Source of the DNA: Gemmatimonadota bacterium
GTDB lineage: Bacteria; Latescibacterota; UBA2968; UBA8231
Assembly: GCA_028875335.1 (NCBI GenBank)
Contig: JAPPEF010000044.1
Coordinates: 1 to 24,006 of the forward strand
Reading direction: 5' to 3'
DNA: 24,006 nucleotides
The notes under the pieces are model-generated. The model saw only the letters and a program-made list of their open reading frames with translations, was not told where the DNA came from and ran no database searches. A program made the position numbers and the translations under genes. Each line of letters opens with the position of its first letter. The stretch's first letter is position 1. Below, piece by piece: positions 10,354 through 24,006 of this stretch.

Positions 10354-12645
10354 TCAAATGCTGTCGTCAATCTCGCGGATCAAAGCGGCTAAGCGCCCTA
10401 GGCATACGGTGAGAAAAATCTCTTGGGCAACGAGCGACTCTTGCCGCACCGGGCTGTTGATGAAGCGGCCGATGGCGATGAGGACTACGTACACCGAGAG
10501 TACATCGTAGGCTTGGTCACTGGTGGCAGAGAGTCCGTCGCGCACGGTGCGCACGACCTGCCGCATGGCCTCGACTAGCGCCTCGGCCTTTTCCTCTTCA
10601 TAAGCGACGACCACCTCCCGGCACAAGGTTTTTAATTGCGTGCGGTCTTCGGTGTCGATGCAGCGGGCCTTGCCCAAGGTGTCCGTTGCCCGGCGCAGCA
10701 GGCGGGTGATGGCGGCGACGCGGTCGGTATCCTCGCGCGAGAGCAAGCGGTAGAACTGGTCGCCAGCGCCTAGCGCACGGCAGACCCCGTTGAGCAGTTG
10801 CAAGCGCACGGCCGGGGAGGGGAAGTCGGGCAGGTGGCCTAGCGCAGGTCTGACAATGCGGCGGTCCTGACGATCGCCGAGGACGTCGACCAGCGTCGGG
10901 AACGTCAGAGGGTCGAAATCGCTGCCAAAGTGCCAGAATAGTAGCTCGTGGACTTCGTCTCCACGGAGGCTGGCTAGGCCGCGGATGGCGCTGATGCGCA
11001 CCCGGGGATCGGCGTCGTCCAACGCCTCGACCAGCGGATCAATGCTCGTGGAGGATCCGAGGCGGCCTAGGGCCTCGGCCGCTTCGCTGCGAATGTCCGA
11101 GGCCCCGTCGAGCAGCTCGCGCACCAAGGGTTCGGTGGCGCTTTCCGATCGGCTCTCGCCCAAGGCGCGGGCCGCGGCACGGCGCACCCGGGGGCTGGCG
11201 TCGGCCAGCGCCTGGACCAATTGCTCAATGGCGAGGGGGTTGCCCGAACGGCCTAGGGCCTCGGCGGCGCGGGCGCGGGTTCCCTCGGCCGTGGCTAGGC
11301 TGAAGATGGTGGCGTTGTAGGCGTAACTGAGGACATTGCCGCGCAGCATCCGCGAGAGCAAGCTGCGCGAAGTTGCGCTCCGCGCGTCCTTGACAGTGCG
11401 GAGGATGAACAAAGGCACTAGCCGGACCAAGGCGCTGAGGGCAAAGATGACCTGTAAATCGCCCATGGGCACGCCGAACACAGAAAAGCGCAAGCCCTCT
11501 AGCTGGGCGACGAGCAGGCCGCCGAACAAGGGGCCGAGTGCGCCCATTAAGTTGACCGTTACCGACCAAGTTGCTAGGTACATCGTGCGTTTCTCACCTT
11601 GGGGCAACAGGCCGTAGAGCAGGGGATTGATACCCACTCCGATCCCGGAGAATAGGATGCCGCTGATGACCAAGGCCACGGGAACCAAGTGGTAAGCCCC
11701 TGGCTGATTAAAGGTCCAGATAAGAGGCAAGAACGCGGCCGGCGTCATCAGAATTTGCAGGACGGGTCTGGCACCGAAGCGGTCGATGAGGCCAGCCCAG
11801 AGCCGGTAGCCAGCGATGCTGGTCAGCATGAACAGGGCGTTGAAAATCGAGACCTCGGTGTAGGAGATCTGCAGGCGGTCGAGCATGAAGACGCTGTAGA
11901 GCGGTCCGGCCAGCCCAATGCCAAAGGTCCACAGGCCAAAAAAGAGAGCGGCGCGGCGGAAGTTGGCGTCGTAGAAGGGCAGCACAAGGTCGCGCAAGCG
12001 CGTGCTTTGTTCGTCGCTGGCGGTTGTCTGTTGGGGAAAGGGGGCGCGGAGGAGGTTTAAGTAGCCCAAGAATCCAAAGAGCGACCCGGCGGCAAAGACC
12101 CAGACAAAGCCGCCGCCGGGGAAAAAGTCGAGGAATTGGCCGATCGCAAAACCGGCAATCATAGCTACTATGGTGCTGACGATGGTCTGGCGGCTGGCAA
12201 AGCGCGCGCGGATATTCTCCGGCACGGCGTTGGCGATCCAAGTGCTGTAAAAGGGCGAGATCGCATAGCCGCTGAACATGCTGAGGCAGACCATGGCTAC
12301 CAAGGCCGGGAGACGATACTGCTCTGGGACGAAGAGGGGGATGATCAGCGGCAGTCCGCGGAAGGCGATTTCCACGTAGCCGCCGAAGACGACAAAGCGC
12401 TTCTTGTCGCGGACGCGGGCGCTCAATAGGGGAGCGAGCAATTGCGTCAAAGCGAGGAAGTACGCGGCAGAGGTGAAGAGGGCGATGAAGGCACCGTCGG
12501 CCCCTAAGTATAGGGCGAAGCCGGTAAAGGCCGCCGTTCCCAACCCGCAGGCTTGCCCCCAAGCACCCCACAAACCGCTGGCGACGACGAAGGAGCGGAG
12601 GGCGCGATGCACTTGGCCGCGCGAGAGAGAAGGTGCATTTGCCAT
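10354..12645 (-). CDS. MFS-type transporter fused to C-terminal HEAT repeats
   Basis: The 763 residues from ATG 12645 split in two. Residues 1 to about 418 are hydrophobic with roughly 12 possible membrane spans and MFS-like character, for example a cytoplasmic RVRDKKRF loop near 77-84 and RLWAGLIDRFGARPV near 281-295. Residues 453 to about 600 are HEAT/PBS-lyase-type helical repeats of 31 residues (ARAAEALGR, VRRAAARALGE, IRSEAAEALGRLG, VRISAIRGLASL). A helical tail follows to residue 763. Substrate and role are unknown; the HEAT part probably binds a partner in the cytoplasm. The start is uncertain: an in-frame start at 12738 would add 31 residues and cross into the divergent gene, and neither has a clear ribosome binding site. 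The 3' end is only 4 bases from the convergent GT2 stop. Confidence 0.87.
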   Translation of the reverse strand: MANAPSLSRGQVHRALRSFVVASGLWGAWGQACGLGTAAFTGFALYLGADGAFIALFTSAAYFLALTQLLAPLLSARVRDKKRFVVFGGYVEIAFRGLPLIIPLFVPEQYRLPALVAMVCLSMFSGYAISPFYSTWIANAVPENIRARFASRQTIVSTIVAMIAGFAIGQFLDFFPGGGFVWVFAAGSLFGFLGYLNLLRAPFPQQTTASDEQSTRLRDLVLPFYDANFRRAALFFGLWTFGIGLAGPLYSVFMLDRLQISYTEVSIFNALFMLTSIAGYRLWAGLIDRFGARPVLQILMTPAAFLPLIWTFNQPGAYHLVPVALVISGILFSGIGVGINPLLYGLLPQGEKRTMYLATWSVTVNLMGALGPLFGGLLVAQLEGLRFSVFGVPMGDLQVIFALSALVRLVPLFILRTVKDARSATSRSLLSRMLRGNVLSYAYNATIFSLATAEGTRARAAEALGRSGNPLAIEQLVQALADASPRVRRAAARALGESRSESATEPLVRELLDGASDIRSEAAEALGRLGSSTSIDPLVEALDDADPRVRISAIRGLASLRGDEVHELLFWHFGSDFDPLTFPTLVDVLGDRQDRRIVRPALGHLPDFPSPAVRLQLLNGVCRALGAGDQFYRLLSREDTDRVAAITRLLRRATDTLGKARCIDTEDRTQLKTLCREVVVAYEEEKAEALVEAMRQVVRTVRDGLSATSDQAYDVLSVYVVLIAIGRFINSPVRQESLVAQEIFLTVCLGRLAALIREIDDSI
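10966..11289 (-). repeat. 93-bp tandem coding repeats (HEAT units) in the transporter fusion
   Basis: Successive 31-residue HEAT units are encoded by 93-bp steps. A 17-base segment, CGGCCTAGGGCCTCGGC, occurs exactly at 11063 and again at 11249. These are 186 bases apart, twice the unit. Such identity suggests recent duplication of units or gene conversion. Confidence 0.7.
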
Positions 12646-12675
12646 GTAAAAAAATATCGTTGCGATGTCAGTAAA

Positions 12676-12693
12676 GGGCAACGAACTTTGCCC
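12676..12693. promoter_or_regulatory. Inverted repeat in a divergent intergenic region (possible operator)
   Basis: GGGCAA (12676-12681) and TTGCCC (12688-12693) form a perfect 6-bp inverted repeat with a 6-base centre. It lies in the 86-bp space between the divergent transporter and isomerase genes. An 18-bp dyad here fits a binding site for a dimeric regulator, but a short hairpin or chance is possible. No clear promoter boxes were found around it. Confidence 0.35.
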
Positions 12694-12717
12694 GTAGGAT
12701 TTTATTGAAACCACAAC

Positions 12718-12725
12718 AAAGGAGG
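12718..12725 (+). promoter_or_regulatory. Ribosome binding site of the isomerase/epimerase gene
   Basis: AAAGGAGG is a near-perfect Shine-Dalgarno sequence 6 bases before GTG 12732. It fixes that start against the TTG at 12705, which lies upstream of the site, and the ATG at 12744, which is too far away. Confidence 0.85.
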
Positions 12726-12731
12726 CGGATT

Positions 12732-13538
12732 GTGACATTCAAGATGGGATACGCGACCCTGCGCTGGCGGCAGCCGGATTTGGCAAAGGCCCTGCCCGAG
12801 CTCAAAAAGGCCGGTTGGGACGGTTGGGAGGGGCGGTTGCCGCTCGACTGGCTGGGGCCGCCGCAGCGGCTGAAGCAAGTGTGCGAGGACGCGGACATGC
12901 CGCTGTGCGTATTTACGGCTAGTGGTTCGCCCGAAGACCGCGACTGGGAGCACACTGAGCGCAACAAGCGGCGGATGGATTTCGCCGCGGAGATGGGCGT
13001 GGATTGCTTCATGTTTATGAGCGGCCGCGGGCCGGAGGGGCGGCCGGTGGAACGCGCTGATATCGAGCGGGCGGCCGAGGGGGCCGAGCAGTGGGCCGAG
13101 TACGCGGCCCAGTACGGGCTGGAGCTAAGCTACCACATCCACACCAACTTGCTGGTGGATTCGGCCGAAGACTGGCGGCTGTACATGAGTTTGCTGGACA
13201 AGACGAAGCTGTGCATCGATGTCTCGCACGCCGAGCTGTGGGACTACGATCCGGTGCAGTCGCTGACGGACTTTTGGTCCCAGCTCAACTATGTCCACCT
13301 ACAGGACTATACGTCTTGCACGGTGCGCGAACCGGGGCGCTACAATCCCGAATGGGTTTCGGTCGGCGAGGGCGAGTGCCTCGACTTTGCCGGGGTGCTC
13401 AACACGCTCGCCGAGCGGGGCTTTGACCGCTGGGTGACCAGTTGTCCGGGCGAACCGGCCTACGAGGGCGAGGACCCAGTCAGCGAGGCGCGGAGGAGTG
13501 CGGGGATGCGCCAGTATTTGCGCGGGTTGGGGTACTAG
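12732..13538 (+). CDS. Sugar phosphate isomerase/epimerase (xylose isomerase-like TIM barrel)
   Basis: The 268 residues belong to the AP-endonuclease-2/xylose isomerase-like TIM barrel family, which includes IolE, hydroxypyruvate isomerase and sugar epimerases. MGYATLRW and KKAGWDGWEGRLPLDW form the first strands, and SYHIHTN (133-139) is the central strand. CIDVSHAEL (161-169, D163 and H166) and YVHLQDY (187-193, H189 and D192) carry likely metal ligands. The usual last glutamate, in a W-x-x-x-E-type strand, is replaced around residues 234-241 by WVTSCPGE, so metal coordination may differ. The substrate is unknown. It is divergent from the transporter fusion across a short gap with an inverted repeat, which suggests a sugar-related function for the pair. 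Its stop overlaps the stop of the convergent GT-C gene by 3-4 bases. Confidence 0.86.
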   Translation: MTFKMGYATLRWRQPDLAKALPELKKAGWDGWEGRLPLDWLGPPQRLKQVCEDADMPLCVFTASGSPEDRDWEHTERNKRRMDFAAEMGVDCFMFMSGRGPEGRPVERADIERAAEGAEQWAEYAAQYGLELSYHIHTNLLVDSAEDWRLYMSLLDKTKLCIDVSHAELWDYDPVQSLTDFWSQLNYVHLQDYTSCTVREPGRYNPEWVSVGEGECLDFAGVLNTLAERGFDRWVTSCPGEPAYEGEDPVSEARRSAGMRQYLRGLGY

Positions 13539-15784
13539 GGCTCCTTGAACATGTGCCGCAGTTGATCGGCTAGCTCTTTGGTTTTTTCCAGCGTCTGTTG
13601 CTGCATGCGGTGTTGCCGCTTTAGGCGCTGGTAGTGCGCGTACTCGGCATCGGCGCGTTCGCGCTGGCCCGTTTTGAGCAGGAGATGGGATAGGGCCCGA
13701 CGGGCCTGGAGGTCGCGGGGATGGTGTTGCAAGATGAGCTCAAAGCGCTGGAGGGCTTGGAGATACTGACCTTGGTTGGCCTCTAAGGTGCCCATGCTGC
13801 GCAAGGCGTGCGCGTTGTCGGGGTCGAGCGCCAGCGCCGCGAGTAAATGACCTTTGGCTGTTTCCTCATCTCCTCGCTTTAGCAGTAGATCGGCTAAATG
13901 GCACAACCCGGCGAGATGGTTGGGTTGCTGGGCTAGTAGCTGCTGATAGGCTTGTTCGGCGCGCTCGGGCTGGCCCTGGTTTTCGTATAGCTGGCCTAGC
14001 AGGTAGTGAGCCGACTGGGAGCCTAGTTCGAGTGCGCGGAGGTAGGCCGCTTCGGCTTGCGCTAGCCGATCGGACTCGGCTTCGACCCGACCGAGGCGGA
14101 GGTAGAGGTGGGCTTGATCGGGTTGCCGCGCTAGGAGTTTTTGGTACTCGGTCGCCGATTCTTGGAACTGGCCCCGTAGCCGGAGGAAATCCGCGAACTG
14201 GAGGCGGACGTCGTCTTGGTCGGGATAGTGGTCGAGGAATTGTCGCCACGTATGGGCGGCATCGTCGTAGCGCTGGGTCGCCCCGTACATATGGGCTAGG
14301 CCTAGCAAAGCGTGGCGCTGGGATGGGTCTAATTCGACGGCGCGGCGGTAGTGCTGCAAGGCGTTGGTCTTCATGCCTTTATTCTCATAGACAGCCGCCA
14401 GCGAGTAGTGGTGAAAGGCGGCCACGTGCGGCTTGGTCGTCGCGGTCCCGGCGTTGGCGACCAATAGCAGTACGGCGAGGGCACCTGCCGACAGATACAA
14501 GGGTCTATGGCGCAAACCAGCCAAGGTGCAAGCGCCATAGGCGGCCAGCAGCAAGAGGCAGGGCACGGCTGGCAAGCGATAGCGGCCCGTGACGAAAAAC
14601 AACACCACCGACAGCATATAGACCCCCGCAAAGAGCAAGACGAGATAGGTCGCCGGGGTGCGGCGTTCCGGTTTTAGCAGGACATATGCCACCCCGAGCA
14701 GGGCGAGGGCCGAGACCAAGCCAAAGGGGAACGCGAGGCCGTACTTCCACAGCAAAAGGCGCAATAGCGGCGAATACTCAGCGGCGAAGTACGGATTGGT
14801 ATTGCGGGGGATCTCAGCCCCGTGCCAAAACAGATAGCCCTTGTGCAAGAGCAGGGCTAAATAGTCCCCCGGCTCGGTGCGTATATATTCCCAAGCTTTG
14901 CCCAAAAGGTAATTCGAGCCGGCTCCCGGCCGGGTGATGCCGGCCTCGCGTTGCGGCAAGTCGATCACGTCGCTCCACCCCGCTCCGGGTCGCGCCGCTA
15001 CAGTGCGGTCGTAGTCCGGGTTATTGCCGAGGTAGAAGTTGATCCCCGCGTTGAAGGAGATGAGCACCCACTCGCCACCGACGATGCGGTTGCGCAGCGT
15101 CACCGGGCCTACCAGCATCAGCAGGCCGACGGCAAAGATCGCCACGTGGATGGCGCGGCGACGAGGTACCGCAGCGGGCCACCAGCGATATACCCACCAA
15201 GCCGCTACTGGCGCAAAGAGCAACACGTTTGGCACGGCCAAGGTACCCAGCCCTAGGACGAGGCCGGCGACAAGTGCGGCATGTGCACCACCTCGGCGCT
15301 GGCCCCACAACAAGACTAATAGCAGTATAGCGTCGAAAAGCACGGCCCAAGTCGTGGGCAAAAGTTCGCCCTCAAAGTAGAGAAAGGGGCCGTACAGCGC
15401 CGCTCCTAGGGCCGCTATCCAACCCACCGTCGGCGAGAAGACCTCGCGGCCTAGCTTGAAGACGAGCAGGCAAGTGACCGTGCCGGCTAGGGCTTGGAGC
15501 AGACGCGGCAGATAGTAGTTTTCGTCAAAAAAAGAAAACAGAACAGCTAGGAAATAGGGGTAAAAAGGAGCCTGCCAGAACGGCATAGGACGCCCAGCCC
15601 AAGTGCCGCTCGCCAGTTCGCGGGCGTATTCGGTATAGCTTCTGGCATCGACAATGGGCGTGTCGAAAAAAGGACTGTCGGCGGCTTGGAATAGGTAAAC
15701 TAAGCGCAGGCCTAGGGCCAAGACGGCTAAGGCGGCCAGCTTGGGCCAGTGCAGCGCAGATGCCTTACTTACCCAGGCCAGCAT
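13535..15784 (-). CDS. GT-C membrane glycosyltransferase (PMT/ArnT-like) with C-terminal TPR domain
   Basis: The 749 residues begin with a multispanning membrane domain (about 15-445). Its first outer loop holds VDARSYTEYARELASG (45-60), where D46 suits the catalytic acidic residue of GT39/GT83-type enzymes. These transfer sugars from polyprenyl phosphate to protein or lipid A on the outer side of the inner membrane. FWQAPFYPYFLAVLF and FFVTGRYRLPAVPCLLLLAA are also typical of this family. Residues about 457-722 form seven or eight TPRs, for example AVYENKGMKTNALQHYRRAV from 464, HYLLGQLYENQGQPERAEQA and SMGTLEANQGQYLQALQRFE. A basic, glutamine-rich tail follows. By topology the TPRs should lie in the periplasm, but this is not proven. 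ATG 15784 lies inside the 3' end of the outer-membrane protein gene (20-bp overlap), so the two are coupled. It is last in the surface operon. Confidence 0.86.
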   Translation of the reverse strand: MLAWVSKASALHWPKLAALAVLALGLRLVYLFQAADSPFFDTPIVDARSYTEYARELASGTWAGRPMPFWQAPFYPYFLAVLFSFFDENYYLPRLLQALAGTVTCLLVFKLGREVFSPTVGWIAALGAALYGPFLYFEGELLPTTWAVLFDAILLLVLLWGQRRGGAHAALVAGLVLGLGTLAVPNVLLFAPVAAWWVYRWWPAAVPRRRAIHVAIFAVGLLMLVGPVTLRNRIVGGEWVLISFNAGINFYLGNNPDYDRTVAARPGAGWSDVIDLPQREAGITRPGAGSNYLLGKAWEYIRTEPGDYLALLLHKGYLFWHGAEIPRNTNPYFAAEYSPLLRLLLWKYGLAFPFGLVSALALLGVAYVLLKPERRTPATYLVLLFAGVYMLSVVLFFVTGRYRLPAVPCLLLLAAYGACTLAGLRHRPLYLSAGALAVLLLVANAGTATTKPHVAAFHHYSLAAVYENKGMKTNALQHYRRAVELDPSQRHALLGLAHMYGATQRYDDAAHTWRQFLDHYPDQDDVRLQFADFLRLRGQFQESATEYQKLLARQPDQAHLYLRLGRVEAESDRLAQAEAAYLRALELGSQSAHYLLGQLYENQGQPERAEQAYQQLLAQQPNHLAGLCHLADLLLKRGDEETAKGHLLAALALDPDNAHALRSMGTLEANQGQYLQALQRFELILQHHPRDLQARRALSHLLLKTGQRERADAEYAHYQRLKRQHRMQQQTLEKTKELADQLRHMFKEP

Positions 15785-18425
15785 ATAGGGTAATAAAGCC
15801 TTGGGTCAGGACTTCCGATTCGCGTTCGATGCTTTTGAAATCGCGCCAATCTGCTTTGAGACCCACTTGGGCGGATACCTCGTAGCCCAAGTAGGAACTC
15901 ACATTGGACAGTTGCAAGGCTCCGGCGATTCCGGTGAAATCGTTGTTGTCGCGCTTCATATCGTTGGCGAAAGAGTACTCAATTCCGGTTTGAATGCGAG
16001 TGTTATTGAGAATGGGAAACCCCAAGAGGAATCCCACTATCTCGGTCAGCACTGTCTCCTCGTCGGCGGTGAACAGCCCCACGGTCTGGCGACGGTATTC
16101 GCTCTTCCAGCGCGGCTCGAGTTGGACGGTGCCCAGATCGTAGCGGTAGCTAAGTTTGTTGATGACGCCAAAAAAGGAGTCCGTCTCGCGCAGGGCCGCG
16201 TCGTCGCGCTGGTGAAAAAGTTCCAAATTGAGATAGTTATACGCCTCCAAGCCCCCTCGGTTGTAGTTGTGTCCGATCCAAGTGGTATTAATCCAAGTGT
16301 CTTGGGCCAAAAGTGGATCTACCACTTTTTGCAACTGGCCGTCGCGCTGCGTGTTTTCGGGGAACCACTGGAGCAGGTCGTCTGGGATATTGTCCTGGGC
16401 CAGTTTGACCATCTGCATGAAGCGGAAGCGCCCTTGTTGGGGATTGTCCCGGTCTAGGCTGAACAGGGCGTAGGACGTGTGGTTGCGCTTGTCGGCCGAG
16501 ATCAGTTCCTCGCGCAGGTGCCCGATGGTAAGGCGAATGTCCGGGGTCAGCCGGTATCCCGTATAGACGTTGAAACCCCGGTGGTCTTTCTGATAGGGGT
16601 AGTCTGGGGATTCGTCGTTTTCAAAGCGGTCAACCCACAGGTTGTTGTTCATGTCGATCCCGTAGAGGAAGTCGGGTCGGTCCACGCGGTGTCTGAGAAA
16701 GGCTTCGTCGTAGTCGGGAATGCCATTGGAGATGGTTAGGTTGTCGTTTTGGTTGAAGTCTGAGATGAAGTCGTAGTTCTCGTCCCAGCCGGGGAAGACC
16801 CGGCGGTCGCCGGCTTGTGAATCGGCGCGCACTAGGTCGGGTGCGCGGTCTTGGTCGTCGTTGTCCTCTACCAACTCTACCACGTGGAAGCGCTCGTTTT
16901 CGTAGTCTATATTGCCGGCCGAACCAGTGACAAAGGTGCGGGTGTTGTAGAGCGGGTCCATGCTGTACGCTTCGCCAAAAAAGAACCAAGGATGGGCCAC
17001 CTTGGACAGGTTGAGCATCCAAGCTGGCTCGACTTGCTCCCCGGCCACGCCCGCTGAAGTGGTGTGGCTGGTCCGCGTTACGCTGGGGTATTTGCGGTAG
17101 GCTATACTCAGATCGTACTCGCCGTAGAAGTTGAAGCCGGCCACATCCCGCAGCTCTAGGGTGGCCCCGATAATTTGAGTAGCCGTGGGCAGGCCGTACT
17201 CGAATTTAAGGATGCGCAGATTGGTGTTGTCCTGCACATTGCCCTCGGCTTGCGCCACTAGCAGCAGCACGGGCTCGTCGCTGCGATTGGTTTGGTTGTT
17301 GGACGTCATCCACACCTGATAGTCGTTGCCAATAGTCATTTCGAACTCGACTTTGGCGATTTCTTCTTTCGGACCCGAGGCCCGGTTGACGAAGGCGGGC
17401 GTGTCGAAGTCGTAGAGCAGGCGGATTTCTTCAGAACCATCGGCCGAGATGAATCCCTCTTGGACGAACCCCCCTTGGATAGCAGGTTCAAAGCGGATTT
17501 CTCGGCCGTGGTCAACAGTGCCGTCGTTGTAGGTAATGATGATGTCCGAACCCACTGGGAAGAAGGCAGCTCCACCGCTGCCGTCTGCGGGCGAGTCGTC
17601 ACGTAGAACAAGTTCGATAAAGGAAACGGTTTGGTTCTGGTCAACCGTCAAAGCCCCGGCAATGGGGTTGCCTTTAAAGCCGTCGCGCAGGGTATTGGAC
17701 TGATGGGTGTTGACGAAGTGAACACCCATTTCGGTGAAATCGCCGATTTGCGCGGTGGCCCGACCGCCCATTAGCGTGGTGAGGTTGGTGGTGAGGACTT
17801 CGGTGTTGTCGGTCGAGGCCCCGCCGGGCGAACTAAGGCGCGAGTAGATGACGGTGCCTTGGTACTTGTCGGTCGCTATGTCGAACTGGACTCCGTCCCA
17901 AAAGGGTTTGGAAAAGCTCATGGGGGTGAGCGTGGTGCGCAGGCGATTCGACACCGTCAGGGCGTAGTGGTACTGACCCTTGCTGTCCGAGGCAATAGCC
18001 ACGCCCGAAAACCAGTTGTTAAAGCGAGAGGCCTTGACCAGCGAACTGCCAAATTGCCGCGGCTGAGTCTGCGAGTTGCTAAAGATGAGCCAGCCACGGG
18101 TGATGGCGTTGCCAAATAGGTCGTAGTAATAGTCGCCCTCTAGCCGGATATCGACGTAGCGCTGGTACAGGTTGCGGGCGTAGTTGCTGTACTCCCATTG
18201 GCGCCAACGGTACTCGTTGTAGAGCTCCTGCGGCACGTACCACTTCTTAATGGCCGGGTCCAGCGCGTCGAAAAGGACGCCCGGGCCATAAGGGGCGTAG
18301 CTGGTCTCGCCTTCCCCTCGAGGGACGCCCAGCCGCGTGCCATAGTCGGGTTGGCTGTAGGCTGGGCTTAGCACACAGCTCAAGACCACCAAAACAGACG
18401 CGGTATTTAGCCTTATCACTTCCAT
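15765..18425 (-). CDS. Predicted outer-membrane or surface beta-rich protein, unknown function
   Basis: I do not recognise a named family. The 886 residues start with a signal peptide (MEVIRLNTASVLVVLSCVLS, cleavage probably after PAYS at 24; C17 makes a lipoprotein a weaker alternative). The mature protein is rich in aromatic, alternating-hydrophobic strands such as YVDIRLEGDYYYDLFGNAIT, FDIATDKYQGTVIYSRL and FNFYGEYDLSIAYRKYP, as in outer-membrane barrels. An acidic region near 545-605 contains an EF-hand-like loop DMNNNLWVDRFE (about 590-602) and NQNDNLTISNGIPDYDE, which may bind calcium. The final GFITLYAGLGK lacks the usual terminal aromatic barrel signal. GGGAAG precedes ATG 18425. It lies 24 bp after the large surface protein gene and overlaps the glycosyltransferase by 20 bp. 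A channel or anchor for the neighbouring exported proteins is a guess from position only. Confidence 0.6.
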   Translation of the reverse strand: MEVIRLNTASVLVVLSCVLSPAYSQPDYGTRLGVPRGEGETSYAPYGPGVLFDALDPAIKKWYVPQELYNEYRWRQWEYSNYARNLYQRYVDIRLEGDYYYDLFGNAITRGWLIFSNSQTQPRQFGSSLVKASRFNNWFSGVAIASDSKGQYHYALTVSNRLRTTLTPMSFSKPFWDGVQFDIATDKYQGTVIYSRLSSPGGASTDNTEVLTTNLTTLMGGRATAQIGDFTEMGVHFVNTHQSNTLRDGFKGNPIAGALTVDQNQTVSFIELVLRDDSPADGSGGAAFFPVGSDIIITYNDGTVDHGREIRFEPAIQGGFVQEGFISADGSEEIRLLYDFDTPAFVNRASGPKEEIAKVEFEMTIGNDYQVWMTSNNQTNRSDEPVLLLVAQAEGNVQDNTNLRILKFEYGLPTATQIIGATLELRDVAGFNFYGEYDLSIAYRKYPSVTRTSHTTSAGVAGEQVEPAWMLNLSKVAHPWFFFGEAYSMDPLYNTRTFVTGSAGNIDYENERFHVVELVEDNDDQDRAPDLVRADSQAGDRRVFPGWDENYDFISDFNQNDNLTISNGIPDYDEAFLRHRVDRPDFLYGIDMNNNLWVDRFENDESPDYPYQKDHRGFNVYTGYRLTPDIRLTIGHLREELISADKRNHTSYALFSLDRDNPQQGRFRFMQMVKLAQDNIPDDLLQWFPENTQRDGQLQKVVDPLLAQDTWINTTWIGHNYNRGGLEAYNYLNLELFHQRDDAALRETDSFFGVINKLSYRYDLGTVQLEPRWKSEYRRQTVGLFTADEETVLTEIVGFLLGFPILNNTRIQTGIEYSFANDMKRDNNDFTGIAGALQLSNVSSYLGYEVSAQVGLKADWRDFKSIERESEVLTQGFITLYAGLGK

Positions 18426-18449
18426 AATCTTCCCTTTGGCTGGTGTATC

Positions 18450-21400
18450 CTAATAGACTACGGCCACGATGCGGGCCAAGGCCGTGTCGGTGGCACGGTC
18501 CGAATCAGCACCGAAATCAATCCGGCATATATAGAGTCCTGGCGGCACGGTCTGGCCAGCCGCATCGCGACCGTCCCAGCGGATTTGCTGGGGGCCTCCT
18601 GCCACTTGGGTGCTGTTTTCCCTTATCAGGCGTCCGTCTAGTGAGTAGAGGCGCAGACTTGCTTGGCGCGCTTGGGTCACTTGAAAGATGGAAAACGCAA
18701 TGGTCAGTTCGTCGTTGATCCCGTCGCCGTTGGGCGTAAATGGGTTGGGGGTTAAGCTCAGGTCGCCGAGGACTTGCCCTCCTACGGGGATGCTCAGCGT
18801 CAGTTGACGGCTATCCGTTAGCGCAGTGGCGTCGCCTGGTTCTACTTGCTGCCACAAGTTGCCGTCAGTGCCAGCGGCGGCGCGACGGACAAAAGGCTTA
18901 AAAGTGGTTCCGTTGCGAAAGATGGCGGCGGCAAAGCGCAAGTGGATTAAGGGGCCTTGACCCAAGATGGCACCGCGTTCGGCTCTTGGTAACGCGCGGT
19001 AGGTTGCGCGCGTCAGGGAATCGCCCAAGGCGTCAAAGGGCGACTGGGCCCCGCCGCCGCGCAGTTTGCGGAAATAGCGAATCGGCCCTTGTTCGGCTGG
19101 GGGCAAGTCATCGTACTCAGCACGGCCAGAGACCGCTGCCAAGCCGTCGGCGGTCTGCCGCAAAAAGAGGATAGCTCCGCGCTCGGATTCGTTGAGCAGG
19201 CCGTAGGCCGCCTCGGTGATCGGGTCGCCGTCCTCGCCAACTATGACTTCGGCTCCTTGGGGAGTGATGCGGTGGTAGGTCTGAACTGCCTGCTCTGCTG
19301 GTAGGGTCTGGTGTAGTTGGGGCAGCAGGACCCAGATGGAGTCGGCGTGGTTGCGCTGCACTTGGGCGATGGCCCCAGTAGCGTCGGTCAGGTGGCCGTC
19401 GGCCGCTAGGGTAAACGTCTGCGAGGGACTTCCTTGACTTAGGTCTTCTTCGGTCCCCGTGCTTAGGCTCAACAGGTGCATTGCGAGGCCGGGCGGAGCC
19501 TGCAACAGGATTTCGTCAAAGCCTGGGGTGCGGTCGGCCGCTGGCTCGTCGATGAATACCGGGCGCAGATACAGGTCGAATGTGTCTAACTGGCCGACCG
19601 CGGCCTGCGTGGGCCATACTTCAGCGGTGAGGGCGCGGGCTACGGGCGGGGCCAGTTCTACTTCGATCGAGCTAATGGAGGCGGCTTGCTGGCGGTCTTG
19701 GCTGGTGAAGCGCACCTGCAGCTGCATGTAATTGCGCAGCCCTGGAGAACGAACCCGGTCGCCCGGCTGTAGGTACTGCTGGCTCCAAGGACTCCAGCCG
19801 CTGCCGAGGGCAAAGGTAGTGTCGATGGGTCCCTTCCAACTGCTGATCAGCTTGTCCCATTCTTCTTTGGTTTTCTCGTTGCCATTGACGTCGAAATGGC
19901 GAATTTGCTGCACCAGCAGATCGCCAGTGCGCGTGCGCACTTCCGCGGTCGTGCCGGGAGGGTGGGTGCCGGGAGGCGGATCCCAGCGGATGGCACCGAA
20001 GTTGCGCGGTCCCGGCAGGCGAATGATATCGGACACCAGCGAGGCTTGGCTGACAAACCCCTCGGTGTAGAGCAGGACTTCGGTCAGGTCGTAGAAAAAG
20101 CCCGAAGTCCGCTTGATGCCCGGCAGGCGCAGGTTGAGGAAGCGGATATCTAGGGGTGGGTCAAAGCGGTCGGCAGCGCGCTTGAATTCCCCTTCCATGC
20201 GGTCGGGTAGGCTGACCTGTCGCCACCGGAGCTGACCCTTGGGATCGCGGCTGCCGTCGGCTACCTCGGTGATGTAGCCGGGAATAGAGGGAACGGCCAA
20301 GCGCATGGCGTCGAGCCAGACGCGGGCACCAATATCGACGGTGAGAATGCCTGCGGTGGGATTATTGCTAAACCACGCCGGCATGCGGAAGGTGGTGTTC
20401 CAGTCGCCATCAAAGCCCCCGGCCGGGACTTCCGGCCCGGTAAAGCTAACGCTGCCACCTCCGTCAATTAACTTAGGCGATAGGTTGTCGCCCCAGCCCC
20501 AGACCTCAACTTCGGCTAGGCGAGGCCGCTCGCGGATATAGTACTCTTTGCGGCCCTGTTGTTCTTGGGGGAGACTCTCGTAAATAGCCTGTTCCACCGG
20601 CTCCTCAAAGCCGACGTCGTCGCGGATGTAGTAGAGTATATCGCCCCGTTCATCGACCGTCAGGGCATCCCACGCCGCTTTGTCGATTTGGTGTGCCCGC
20701 CCCAGCTTGCTGTCGCCGATGAGAATGCGCACGGTCTGGGCCATGCGACCGGTCCACTCGGTGCGGCCGCCGTCGTCTTCGGAAAAGCCGGGTGTGTCCT
20801 CGGAAGAAAACGCCATCGTCCGCTGGTCCGTATTGGGAGCCCGGGTTTGGCCGACCACCTTGAACTGGAGCACGCGGCTTTGGGCTTGAATGAGCTTCTG
20901 CTGGGGGGCTAGCATGACGCGGAACTGGCGGAAGGGATCGCCCAAGGTCTCATCGACAAAGTGCAGCACTACCTTCTCAACCACGACCGCGCGGCCCAAG
21001 TCGATCTCGATCCACCACTTGTCTGGAGTGGCCGATAAGTCTGGTTCCCAAAAGGTGTCGCGGTCGCCGTCGACAATGCGGGGGGCTAGGGCTTCGTTGG
21101 AGCCTACTCGACTGACGCCGACGCGCTGGACATAGTCGTACACTGGGAAGGCGATTTTGTCCTTAACACCAAATTCGCGCGTCGATGTTACACCTGTACG
21201 TTCGTCGCGTAGGCTTAGGATCACGGTCTTGCCGTCGCTGCTGAGGGTGGTGTCGACGATGGTTAGGAGTCGGCCGTTAATGGGGATCTGGCTGTGGTTG
21301 CCGGGGAAGCGTTTGAAGTCTCGGTCGAGAAATTTGATCAGTTGCTCGGCCTTGCTGAAGGTGAAACTGCCGTCCGCTTCCAGCGTCGGGGTGCGCTGGA

Positions 21401-21710
21401 GGTTCATAATCGCCCGATCCGCCTTGCGAATGCCCGGTTGGTCCACGGGTTTGGCAAATACCGCGCGGTCTTCGGCGGTGATGTTGTACACATGGCGGAA
21501 GAGATGGGGCTTGACCGTCCCGTCTGGATGCACATCGACCACGTGCGAGGGCCCGGTCCAGTGTCGCCAATAGGAAGCCTTATCGACGATGATGCGGTCG
21601 CCCTGCAGACGGTGGCCTAAGGGCGCTTGGGCACTGACTTGCTGGAGGGCCAAACACCCAAAAGCTAAGGCCCAAATCCGGCTCCAACGGCTGTATCGCT
21701 TGCGGTTCAT
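18450..21710 (-). CDS. Large exported surface protein with discoidin-like region and FlgD/Ig-like C-terminus
   Basis: The 1,086 residues begin with a signal peptide cleaved after VSA at 27. Residues about 205-290 resemble an F5/8 type C (discoidin) fold: RIVDGDRDTFWEPDLS, WWIEIDLGRAVVVEKVVLHF. A second similar segment around 413-550 contains FDGDWNTTFRM and GILTVDIGARVWLDAMRLAV. A motif close to AxYxxLPxxERGxILYxR occurs five times (345-363, 375-393, 834-851, 864-881, 902-916). Residues about 985-1086 are a FlgD-Ig-like module starting LTPNPFTPNGDGIND and ending RIVAVVY; related modules serve as sorting or anchoring domains in FCB bacteria. Carbohydrate or surface binding is inferred from the discoidin-like parts. 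GGAG lies 7 bases before ATG 21710. The gene is 26 bp after the parvulin lipoprotein gene and 24 bp before the outer-membrane candidate. Substrate and export route are unknown. Confidence 0.77.
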   Translation of the reverse strand: MNRKRYSRWSRIWALAFGCLALQQVSAQAPLGHRLQGDRIIVDKASYWRHWTGPSHVVDVHPDGTVKPHLFRHVYNITAEDRAVFAKPVDQPGIRKADRAIMNLQRTPTLEADGSFTFSKAEQLIKFLDRDFKRFPGNHSQIPINGRLLTIVDTTLSSDGKTVILSLRDERTGVTSTREFGVKDKIAFPVYDYVQRVGVSRVGSNEALAPRIVDGDRDTFWEPDLSATPDKWWIEIDLGRAVVVEKVVLHFVDETLGDPFRQFRVMLAPQQKLIQAQSRVLQFKVVGQTRAPNTDQRTMAFSSEDTPGFSEDDGGRTEWTGRMAQTVRILIGDSKLGRAHQIDKAAWDALTVDERGDILYYIRDDVGFEEPVEQAIYESLPQEQQGRKEYYIRERPRLAEVEVWGWGDNLSPKLIDGGGSVSFTGPEVPAGGFDGDWNTTFRMPAWFSNNPTAGILTVDIGARVWLDAMRLAVPSIPGYITEVADGSRDPKGQLRWRQVSLPDRMEGEFKRAADRFDPPLDIRFLNLRLPGIKRTSGFFYDLTEVLLYTEGFVSQASLVSDIIRLPGPRNFGAIRWDPPPGTHPPGTTAEVRTRTGDLLVQQIRHFDVNGNEKTKEEWDKLISSWKGPIDTTFALGSGWSPWSQQYLQPGDRVRSPGLRNYMQLQVRFTSQDRQQAASISSIEVELAPPVARALTAEVWPTQAAVGQLDTFDLYLRPVFIDEPAADRTPGFDEILLQAPPGLAMHLLSLSTGTEEDLSQGSPSQTFTLAADGHLTDATGAIAQVQRNHADSIWVLLPQLHQTLPAEQAVQTYHRITPQGAEVIVGEDGDPITEAAYGLLNESERGAILFLRQTADGLAAVSGRAEYDDLPPAEQGPIRYFRKLRGGGAQSPFDALGDSLTRATYRALPRAERGAILGQGPLIHLRFAAAIFRNGTTFKPFVRRAAAGTDGNLWQQVEPGDATALTDSRQLTLSIPVGGQVLGDLSLTPNPFTPNGDGINDELTIAFSIFQVTQARQASLRLYSLDGRLIRENSTQVAGGPQQIRWDGRDAAGQTVPPGLYICRIDFGADSDRATDTALARIVAVVY
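18713..18749 (-). repeat. Copy 1 of a conserved C-terminal coding segment shared with 23651-23687
   Basis: This 37-base segment encodes the conserved start of the FlgD-like module (NPFTPNGDGIN). It matches 23651-23687 at 34 of 37 positions in the same orientation. One of the three differences falls between otherwise identical codons for the same residue. Shared ancestry of the two C-termini explains it better than chance. Confidence 0.8.
18963..19211 (-). repeat. Copies 3-5 of the five-copy ERG motif in the large surface protein
   Basis: Encodes AAYGLLNESERGAILFLR (834-851), AEYDDLPPAEQGPIRYFR (864-881) and ATYRALPRAERGAIL (902-916). The shared positions are an aromatic at the third residue, then L(P/N), an acidic residue, R/Q-G and I, usually followed by an aromatic and R. 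Spacing is irregular (30 and 38 residues between starts). Confidence 0.7.
20532..20678 (-). repeat. Copies 1-2 of the five-copy ERG motif in the large surface protein
   Basis: Encodes AAWDALTVDERGDILYYIR (345-363) and AIYESLPQEQQGRKEYYIR (375-393), 30 residues apart. They lie between the first discoidin-like region and the second. Similarity to the C-terminal copies is visible by eye in the aromatic, L, E(R/Q)G and YxR positions. Confidence 0.65.
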
Positions 21711-21736
21711 GGAATTTCTCCAAGTTGTGCGACCGT

Positions 21737-23392
21737 TTAAAAGGCGGTGAGGAAATCGTCGGGCAGGGCCGCAGCTAATTGCTGTTGGTCCACTTGGATC
21801 TGATCGGCGTATTGCTGGCGCAGGGTTTCTATATAGGCTTGAAACCGCTCCCGCTCCTCGGCCCGGCGCAGCATGTCGCTAACCTGCCGGCGGACTTGGG
21901 CAAAAGGCATGCGTTCCCCCGGCTGGCGGCGGACGATCTCGAATACGGAGAAGCCATCGTGGACTTGTACCGGCCCGACTAGTTCATCTGGCTGCGCGGC
22001 TAGGATATAGGGTACCAAGTCCGAAGTTTTCTCCATGGGAAAGACGCCGCCCCGCGCTCGGGCCCCTCGGCGTTTGCTACGCTCTTGGGCTAGGGCCGCG
22101 ATGTCGGCTCCCGCTTCGATTTGCCGCCGCACGGCTAGCGCTTCTTCTTCGGTCTCCACCAGTACTTCGGCCACGTCGATCTGGTCCCGGCGACGGAAGC
22201 GCTCGGTCTGCTCGTCGTAGTAGCGGCGCACGGCCTCTGGAGCGATGGTGATGGATGCCACTACTCTTTGCTGGCGCAGTTGGCTGATGACGACCTCTTC
22301 GCGCAGGCTCTGCCGCACCGTTTCGAGGGTCTCTCGGTCAATTAAATCCTCGTGGTGGACCGCGGCGGCAAAGATGTAGGGCTGGAGCAGGAAGCGCTCG
22401 GCGAGTTGGACCAAGGCGGTGCTGTCGGCTACGGCGTTGATGTTGCGGTTTTTGAGTTGGTCGATCAGCTCGCCTAGAGGCACTTGGCCGCCCGTAAACT
22501 TGAACAAAGGCGTTCGTTCTTCCTCTGGCGTCAGTTCCAAGGCCGCCAATGGCTGGCCTTTTTTTAGTAGGAGGCGCAACCCTGGTTCGTGGAGATTCCA
22601 GGCGTATTTGTCGGCCAATTGTTCGGCCCGGGCCGCTCGCGCTTCGCCGAGCCTTTCCTCTTGGAGTTGCTGGAGGATTTCGTCCCGGAAGTCGAAGTAA
22701 GATACCGGCCGTTCCTCGGTAAAGCGCACGACGCAAAAGCCTGCGGAGTGGGGCAGTACGGGCGATAAGACCCCCAAGGGTAAATCGTAGAACAGCGAAT
22801 CGGGGAGGCCCATGCGGCGGATGGATTCCACTCGGAGCCAGCCTAATTCGCCTCCGTTGGCTGCGTCGGGCGTGATGGAGTAGCGGGCGGCCACTTCGCC
22901 AAACGGGGTGCCAGCGGCCAACTCGGCCACGGCTTGTTCTAGTTCCGGCCGCGCCTTGGCCATAATGCCCCACGTCATCCGCTCTAACGTGCGGTGGAGT
23001 CCTTGGCGCTCAAAGCGCTGTTTGATTTCGTCCTCGTCAACGAGGGGCGGTTGCACGGGCTTGCGCTTGAGATAGAAGGCGACCAAATGCCGACGGATTC
23101 TGCGCTCTAGTTGGCGCTGGGTTGTGGCCGCGGTGTCCAAACCGAGGGCTTGGGCTTCCAGCCACATGAGGTGGTAGTCGATGAGGGGTTGGAGGTACTC
23201 GCGCCGCGCTGCCGGGCCTTCTTGGCGGCTCCGCTGGCTTTCGTTCAGCCCTAGGACGTAAGATCGGAGATCCTCGGCGGTGATAGCGCGTGTACCGATC
23301 TGAACCACGGCGGGGGATTCCTGCTCACTACAGCTCCACAAAAAGGCTCCGATCAGGGTGCAAGTTATTATAGCGATGCGTACTCTGTTCAT
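21737..23392 (-). CDS. Lipoprotein with two degenerate parvulin (PpiC/SurA-like) domains
   Basis: The 551 residues start with a lipoprotein signal, lipid cysteine C21 in FLWSC. The order resembles SurA/PrsA foldases. An N-terminal helical chaperone region (about 28-130) contains ITAEDLRSYVLGLNESQRSR. Parvulin-like domain 1 (about 136-228) has GTPFGEVAARYSITPDAANG, then GELGWL. A helical linker follows, then parvulin-like domain 2 (about 403-490; AGADIAALAQERSKRRGARA and RGGVFPME), then a charged helical tail. In both domains the two conserved histidines look replaced: W141 and C220 in the first, E409 and S482 in the second. A chaperone rather than an active prolyl isomerase is therefore likely. 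It acts outside the inner membrane. ATG 23392 follows the preceding stop after one base, and the next gene starts 26 bp downstream, so it is sandwiched between two surface-protein genes whose products it may escort. Confidence 0.86.
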   Translation of the reverse strand: MNRVRIAIITCTLIGAFLWSCSEQESPAVVQIGTRAITAEDLRSYVLGLNESQRSRQEGPAARREYLQPLIDYHLMWLEAQALGLDTAATTQRQLERRIRRHLVAFYLKRKPVQPPLVDEDEIKQRFERQGLHRTLERMTWGIMAKARPELEQAVAELAAGTPFGEVAARYSITPDAANGGELGWLRVESIRRMGLPDSLFYDLPLGVLSPVLPHSAGFCVVRFTEERPVSYFDFRDEILQQLQEERLGEARAARAEQLADKYAWNLHEPGLRLLLKKGQPLAALELTPEEERTPLFKFTGGQVPLGELIDQLKNRNINAVADSTALVQLAERFLLQPYIFAAAVHHEDLIDRETLETVRQSLREEVVISQLRQQRVVASITIAPEAVRRYYDEQTERFRRRDQIDVAEVLVETEEEALAVRRQIEAGADIAALAQERSKRRGARARGGVFPMEKTSDLVPYILAAQPDELVGPVQVHDGFSVFEIVRRQPGERMPFAQVRRQVSDMLRRAEERERFQAYIETLRQQYADQIQVDQQQLAAALPDDFLTAF

Positions 23393-23393
23393 G

Positions 23394-24006
23394 TCAGTAG
23401 GCTATGTATAGAGGGTGTGCCTGCAGGTCGTCGCCCAGGTCTCCGGCTACGGTTATGCCCAACAAGTACACGCCTGGGGGGACGAGCTGGCCGTCAGGGA
23501 CTCGCCCGTCCCAAGTAAGGGCGTAGCGACCGTTGCTGAGCGCCGTCTGCTGTAGGGTGTGTACCAGTCGGCCCGACAGGTCGTACAGGCTCACCGCAAC
23601 AGCACCGGCCTTGGTCAGCGCTAGGATGTTGTAGGCGATAGCGACTTGGTCGTTGATCCCATCGCCGTTGGGCGTAAAGGGATTGGGCGTCAGTTCGAGG
23701 GCATCGATCAGCCGTTCGCTGCGGATTATCGAGGGGCTGAGCACCGTGGTGCCGGAGCGGGTGGGCTGGTCTTCGTCCCCCAAATTGGCGCTATTGCCCG
23801 AGGTGGAGTTTTGAAACGAACCGGGTTCGCTCGACAGCGAAGCCTGCCCGCGAAATTCGGTGCTAAAGGCCAGTACGGCCGCGCGAAACCTGATTTTCAG
23901 CAGACTGTCATCGGCTTGAATGCGCGGAAAGCGCACGCTGAAGTGGTCCTCTGCAATGGCGTTGATGGCAAGCCCCGAACCGCCAGCCGTATCGCCTTGC
24001 GCAAAG
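23394..24006 (-). CDS. Surface protein with FlgD/Ig-like C-terminal module (5' truncated by window edge)
   Basis: The frame is open to the window edge, so only the last 203 residues are visible. The GTG at 23936 is internal. LLKIRFRAAVLAFSTEF resembles LIHLRFAAAIFRNGTTF of the 1,086-residue protein. A serine/asparagine-rich link follows (SSEPGSFQNSTSGNSANLGD), then LELTPNPFTPNGDGIND and a FlgD-Ig-like module (VSLYDLSGRLVHTL, YALTWDGRVPDGQLVPPGVY). It ends HPLYIAY. The C-terminal module is thus paralogous to that of the gene at 18450-21710. It is probably exported, but the signal peptide is outside the window. Its stop is one base from the parvulin lipoprotein start, which puts it in the same operon. 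Function of the missing N-terminal part is unknown. Confidence 0.78.
   Translation of the reverse strand, partial: FAQGDTAGGSGLAINAIAEDHFSVRFPRIQADDSLLKIRFRAAVLAFSTEFRGQASLSSEPGSFQNSTSGNSANLGDEDQPTRSGTTVLSPSIIRSERLIDALELTPNPFTPNGDGINDQVAIAYNILALTKAGAVAVSLYDLSGRLVHTLQQTALSNGRYALTWDGRVPDGQLVPPGVYLLGITVAGDLGDDLQAHPLYIAY
23651..23687 (-). repeat. Copy 2 of the conserved C-terminal coding segment shared with 18713-18749
   Basis: Encodes the NPFTPNGDGIN part of the FlgD-like module in the truncated surface protein. It matches the other copy at 34 of 37 bases. Confidence 0.8.

Follow-up and report, generated by a model that had tools for sequence, protein, structure and literature searches.

On a contig assigned to Latescibacterota (JAPPEF010000044.1, assembly GCA_028875335.1; the 24,006-nucleotide stretch analysed is called the window), five minus-strand genes follow one another. 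They encode two exported proteins (S), a parvulin lipoprotein candidate (P), a protein of no named family (O) and a glycosyltransferase (G). Do these genes form a dedicated surface-display system, as a first-pass annotation of the sequence proposed, and does the system carry its own export machine? Our data suggest a system for surface display or uptake that is as yet unstudied and rests on a known secretion machine. With slightly better than even confidence, we read the genes as one of many copies of a cassette that uses type IX secretion to display proteins, probably glycan-binding ones, at the cell surface, with O as the dedicated surface partner of S.

A recurrent gene cassette

The five open reading frames are arranged exactly as first annotated (Table 1), separated in transcription order (partial S, P, S1086, O, G) by gaps of 1, 26 and 24 bp and then a 20-bp overlap. 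Pfam also bears out the domain content read from the sequence. Both exported proteins carry C-terminal FlgD/Ig-like modules, with CHU_C above its cut-off in each and FlgD_ig above it in the partial S only (22.0 bits against a cut-off of 27 in S1086). The protein between them has two parvulin stretches, the 749-residue protein combines PMT_2 with tetratricopeptide repeats (TPRs), and the 886-residue protein matches no Pfam family at E ≤ 1. A feature missing from the first description is an F5/8-type-C domain in S1086 (32.7 bits, cut-off 28.2).

Table 1 Cassette genes and their features in the window
Feature	Position	Strand	Details
Partial S protein, 3' part	23394..24006	minus	203 aa within window; ORF 23394-24005 open at window end; G002 counterpart 693 aa
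Type IX C-terminal domain of partial S	about 23397-23687	minus	Pfam
P, lipoprotein candidate, 551 aa	21737..23392	minus	PPIC domains about 22712-22954 and 21890-22240
S1086, S protein of 1086 aa	18450..21710	minus	F5/8-type-C about 20913-21089; type IX C-terminal domain about 18453-18752
O, 886 aa, outer-membrane barrel candidate, family without a name	15765..18425	minus	beta-sandwich insert about 17193-17528
Asp/Asn-rich loop of O, residues 490-614	16584..16958	minus	most conserved part of the family
G, GT-C glycosyltransferase, 749 aa	13535..15784	minus	PMT_2 about 15116-15574; C-terminal TPRs about 13568-14419

For the region beyond position 24006, the complete chromosome OX638377.1 (genome G002) shows two further co-directional genes ahead of the five, S720 and, farther upstream, U308 (2996254-2997180). 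Read along one strand, the full set is U308, S720, S693, P551, S1086, O886, G749; of these, the window contains the final five, with the first of the five truncated. This seven-gene string occurs at three loci of close relatives (L076, L077 and L090, the last being the G002 locus). O of the window is 99% identical to O at L076 and L090, whose records are titled Latescibacterota or Latescibacteria, and the nearest genome compared has O at 100% identity over residues 297-886, plus residues 1-94 on a second contig. Other relatives of O sit in records titled, for example, Gemmatimonadota and in one case Bryobacterales; we infer that these bins are misnamed and are also Latescibacterota. The order S-O-G recurs at L099, L101 and L107, in two other metagenome-assembled genomes whose O is 46-48% identical to that of the window.

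G002 alone encodes 47 O genes in 31 clusters (genes called as longest open reading frames, family labels from profiles built for this analysis). Directly upstream on the same strand lies S in 31 of the 47 cases and another O in 9; G lies directly downstream of 6. S was called in 30 of the 31 regions, U in 23, P in 22 and G in 8, and the region without a called S (L195) does contain matches in the S profile search. Homologues of the 886-residue protein are hence not scattered away from the other genes, the outcome that would have spoken against the proposed operon. The S search scored 150 of 258 candidates and gave 171 matches, some genes giving two, of which 150 are listed. Of the listed matches, 96 are found no more than 10 kb from an O gene, a distance reached by 10.8% of random positions. 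In turn, a listed S match stands that close to 45 of the 47 O genes. Among 72 loci outside G002, picked for holding O and partly from close strains, S is directly upstream of 56 of 97 O genes, with P directly downstream of 24 and G of 19. S is a near-constant partner of O, P and U are frequent, and G is an optional accessory; the recurrent order, together with the proximity of S to O in G002, makes the gene set more than a chance assembly. S genes also occur apart from O: at L259 (G002, 3330000-3349000) four of them, one cut, stand in 19 kb without an O match, next to Gfo/Idh-like and isomerase-like genes (both named by eye).

Among 64 genomes from the phylum, 39 match a profile of O, with up to 14 candidates scored per genome: 25/25 in the family of the window and 14/15 in families f5-f9, against 0/2 in f10 and 0/22 across the remaining families of the same class. 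A protein search found 668 O-related proteins at E ≤ 0.001 among 7991 scored candidates; none of the best 120 has a Pfam domain, and their descriptive names read 'hypothetical protein'. Other phyla were covered by this search and one contig scan only.

O is an outer-membrane barrel candidate

The one O protein modelled folds as a predicted barrel of about 24 long strands (our count from the DSSP assignment of the model), which suggests a location in the outer membrane. Its Asp/Asn-rich loop, part of which is modelled at low confidence, may bind calcium and face outwards. No NCBIfam model matches O. A sequence search of the Protein Data Bank (PDB) returned one match (E 1.3), which we did not use. 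Porins, ushers, TonB receptors, LptD and others fill the best 50 matches of each of two structure searches, and no solved structure among them covers O well.

Several known families were considered and rejected. O is not a PorP/SprF protein, as PF11751 is unmatched at E ≤ 1 and about 24 strands stand against the 14 of a FadL-type barrel; a genome search with PF11751 found nothing in the genomes or in the controls, and so does not show that PorP/SprF is absent from the genomes. Kinship with SprA is equally unsupported (compared with three close SprA proteins aligned together, hhalign gave a probability of 4.4, from one 44-column Asp/Asn stretch). At the same Pfam threshold O has neither the TonB-plug nor the receptor domain of SusC and TonB-dependent receptors, and no match to the fimbrial usher family, to which its fold bears a partial likeness.

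S proteins as probable type IX cargo

The tails of the S proteins are type IX C-terminal domains by Pfam. The one S modelled, S693 (the G002 counterpart of the partial S), shows a PorU-like fold in this region and a CBM32-like domain elsewhere. Membership of S in the CBM32 or F5/8-type-C group is found by fold and by family, and we consider the S proteins probably sugar-binding.

Genes for SprA and PorU and a gene of the PorV family score above cut-off in 3/3 genomes searched, at sites away from the cassette, while 14 control genomes gave matches in 0 (SprA), 2 (PorU) and 1 (PorV), none above cut-off. S is therefore best read as cargo of type IX secretion and not of a self-contained system. 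Because S tails are of the type IX kind and the core components are encoded elsewhere, the export machine is probably common to the genome and lies outside the cassette. The notion of a dedicated surface-display system is thus supported as regards a conserved, linked gene set for surface proteins with a barrel candidate; that the set is self-sufficient is not supported.

P, U and neighbouring genes

P carries a lipobox-like LWSC, read by eye, as were the signal peptides. Its matches in the PDB, searched with the SprA-associated isomerase in view as a possible relative, include SurA, PrsA, PpiD and other parvulin chains. Passages of PMC9143113 describe SprA, SprB and a peptidyl-prolyl isomerase found together, an association that a parvulin in the cassette would fit.

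In G002, 23 of the 25 listed U genes carry TAVExx[ST]W[GA]x[ILV]K at their end, 19 of them exactly and 4 with one residue changed, and one of the remaining two is a cut gene. The whole genome has 32 sites for the motif and none for its reversed form. At 30/30 fetched loci (L228-L257) it lies 3-14 residues before the stop, in 25 cases on U proteins and in 5 on weak U matches. It resembles a short tag for sorting or docking. The carbohydrate-binding family CBM9 (PF06452) matches one of four U copies, at 20.1 bits against a cut-off of 23.4, and does not match the U of this cassette in G002.

A scan of neighbours in the 31 G002 regions covered 96 of 170 open reading frames outside the five families (complete, at least 230 aa), with 25 of 80 matched families seen. 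The 96 genes include 11 FG-GAP_3, 11 UnbV_ASPIC, about 10 TPR and 7 DUF6785/DUF6784 genes, some of the TPR or ASPIC genes directly downstream of O. Elsewhere in the window, a gene for ribosomal protein L3 (8517-9134; PF00297, 43.1 bits) is flanked by a GT9 and a GT2 gene; there is no other ribosomal protein among the neighbouring open reading frames scanned, short ones not being examined. A single 794-residue frame at 10354-12738 fuses a major facilitator superfamily (MFS) transporter domain to HEAT repeats.

A proposed mechanism and its alternatives

In the mechanism that we favour, S would enter the periplasm by its signal peptide, where the putative lipoprotein P may keep it foldable, and SprA would export it through its C-terminal domain. 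The O of the same cassette would then hold the exported protein at the surface, as SprF and PorP do for SprB and PG1035; this role, comparable to theirs although O falls outside their family, is the most likely one for O. Glycans would be bound by the CBM32-like domain of S and perhaps by U, and in a minority of cassettes G may modify S or O. A bolder version is doubtful: that Latescibacterota evolved surface glycan capture independently of SusCD, through dozens of cognate lectin-barrel complexes assembled by type IX secretion (G002 alone has 47 barrel genes). O would then form a new class of barrel, with 24 strands and an outer loop that is loaded with calcium and docks the type IX tail, and TAVExxSWGxIK on the partner U would be a second, undescribed C-terminal signal.

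Several observations weigh against the favoured mechanism. TIGR04131 stays below its cut-off of 35 in 4/4 S tails (19.5-25.5), TIGR04183 (cut-off 23) reaches 15.0 in S1086 and 23.0, 25.1 and 28.1 in the other three, and the PDB sequences closest to an S tail are FlgD and C5a peptidase, which are not type IX proteins. PorV_fam is broad, with 9-13 matching places per genome, so that the assignment of PorV rests on adjacency to PorU. On the side of O, the missing PorP_SprF match and the count of about 24 strands instead of 14 tell against a SprF-like role, and of the 150 S matches listed for G002, 54 have no O gene within 10 kb. Finally, when O and S distances were correlated over the same 15 cassettes (Mantel test), r was 0.75 for the second-upstream S and 0.55 for the adjacent one. 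Since the adjacent S does no better than the second-upstream one, we rejected the test as proof of S-O pairing; what it shows is co-inheritance of cassettes.

The chief rival is uptake of the SusCD kind, in which O would be a large glycan channel fed by the surface binders S and U, the dozens of cassettes would serve dozens of substrates, and type IX secretion would merely deliver S. We regard this as possible, if clearly on the unlikely side. It leaves the energy source unaccounted for, neither TonB-plug nor SusD-type families match O or S, and no glycoside hydrolase appears among the 25 of 80 neighbour families seen, a sample in which links to catabolism are undertested. Its channel and the surface-partner role that we favour could both be true of O.

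Two further explanations carry much less weight. O might be a SprA-independent translocon for its own S, as in two-partner or usher pathways, which is improbable given type IX tails by Pfam and fold and the SprA and PorU genes in the genomes searched; O also lacks the usher family match, and usher structures among the best 50 Foldseek matches reach a TM score of at most 0.35 under either normalisation. Slightly less probable still is that S, O, P, U and G form no functional unit and are individually common genes brought together by joint duplication. Co-duplication does explain the O-S distance correlation, and G and P are missing from some clusters. Against it stand the S-O order beyond close relatives, in cassettes with an O less than half identical to that of the window, and the S match near almost every O gene of G002.

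Relation to known systems

The first-pass annotation knew of no named system of this composition. Our narrow literature searches hold nothing to contradict this: one combining Latescibacter* with type IX secretion or T9SS found no paper, and the gene set is not met in the passages on Latescibacterota or PAUC34f of PMC12993501, PMC7081726 and PMC4454575, the last of which mentions porins, Plug-domain proteins and a type VI system. The pairing of cargo with a barrel, on the other hand, has precedent in the relevant passages of PMC9143113. If our reading is true, type IX secretion is put to extensive and so far unstudied use in a phylum where we found no paper on it, and a nameless barrel family of hundreds of members would get a name. 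If S and O do pair, the glycan encounters of uncultured Latescibacterota become testable.

According to those passages of PMC9143113, type B C-terminal-domain cargo is paired with PorP-like barrels of 14 strands, as in PG1035-PorP and SprB-SprF, and F. johnsoniae has 10 PorP-like proteins. The cassette resembles these pairs in placing a type IX cargo gene near a dedicated outer-membrane barrel candidate, several times per genome. It differs in the family and modelled strand number of O and in its 47 copies in one genome. The modelled S, moreover, bears a lectin-like domain, and the tail scores fix neither type A nor type B. With the type IX core of SprA, PorU and PorV the cassette shares its genomes, and O is not a relative of SprA. 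SusCD systems likewise comprise a large barrel with an inserted domain, probable surface glycan binders and dozens of paralogues; compared by Pfam, the cassette differs in having no TonB-plug or SusD-type match and, in the families seen, no regular partner of the glycoside hydrolase kind.
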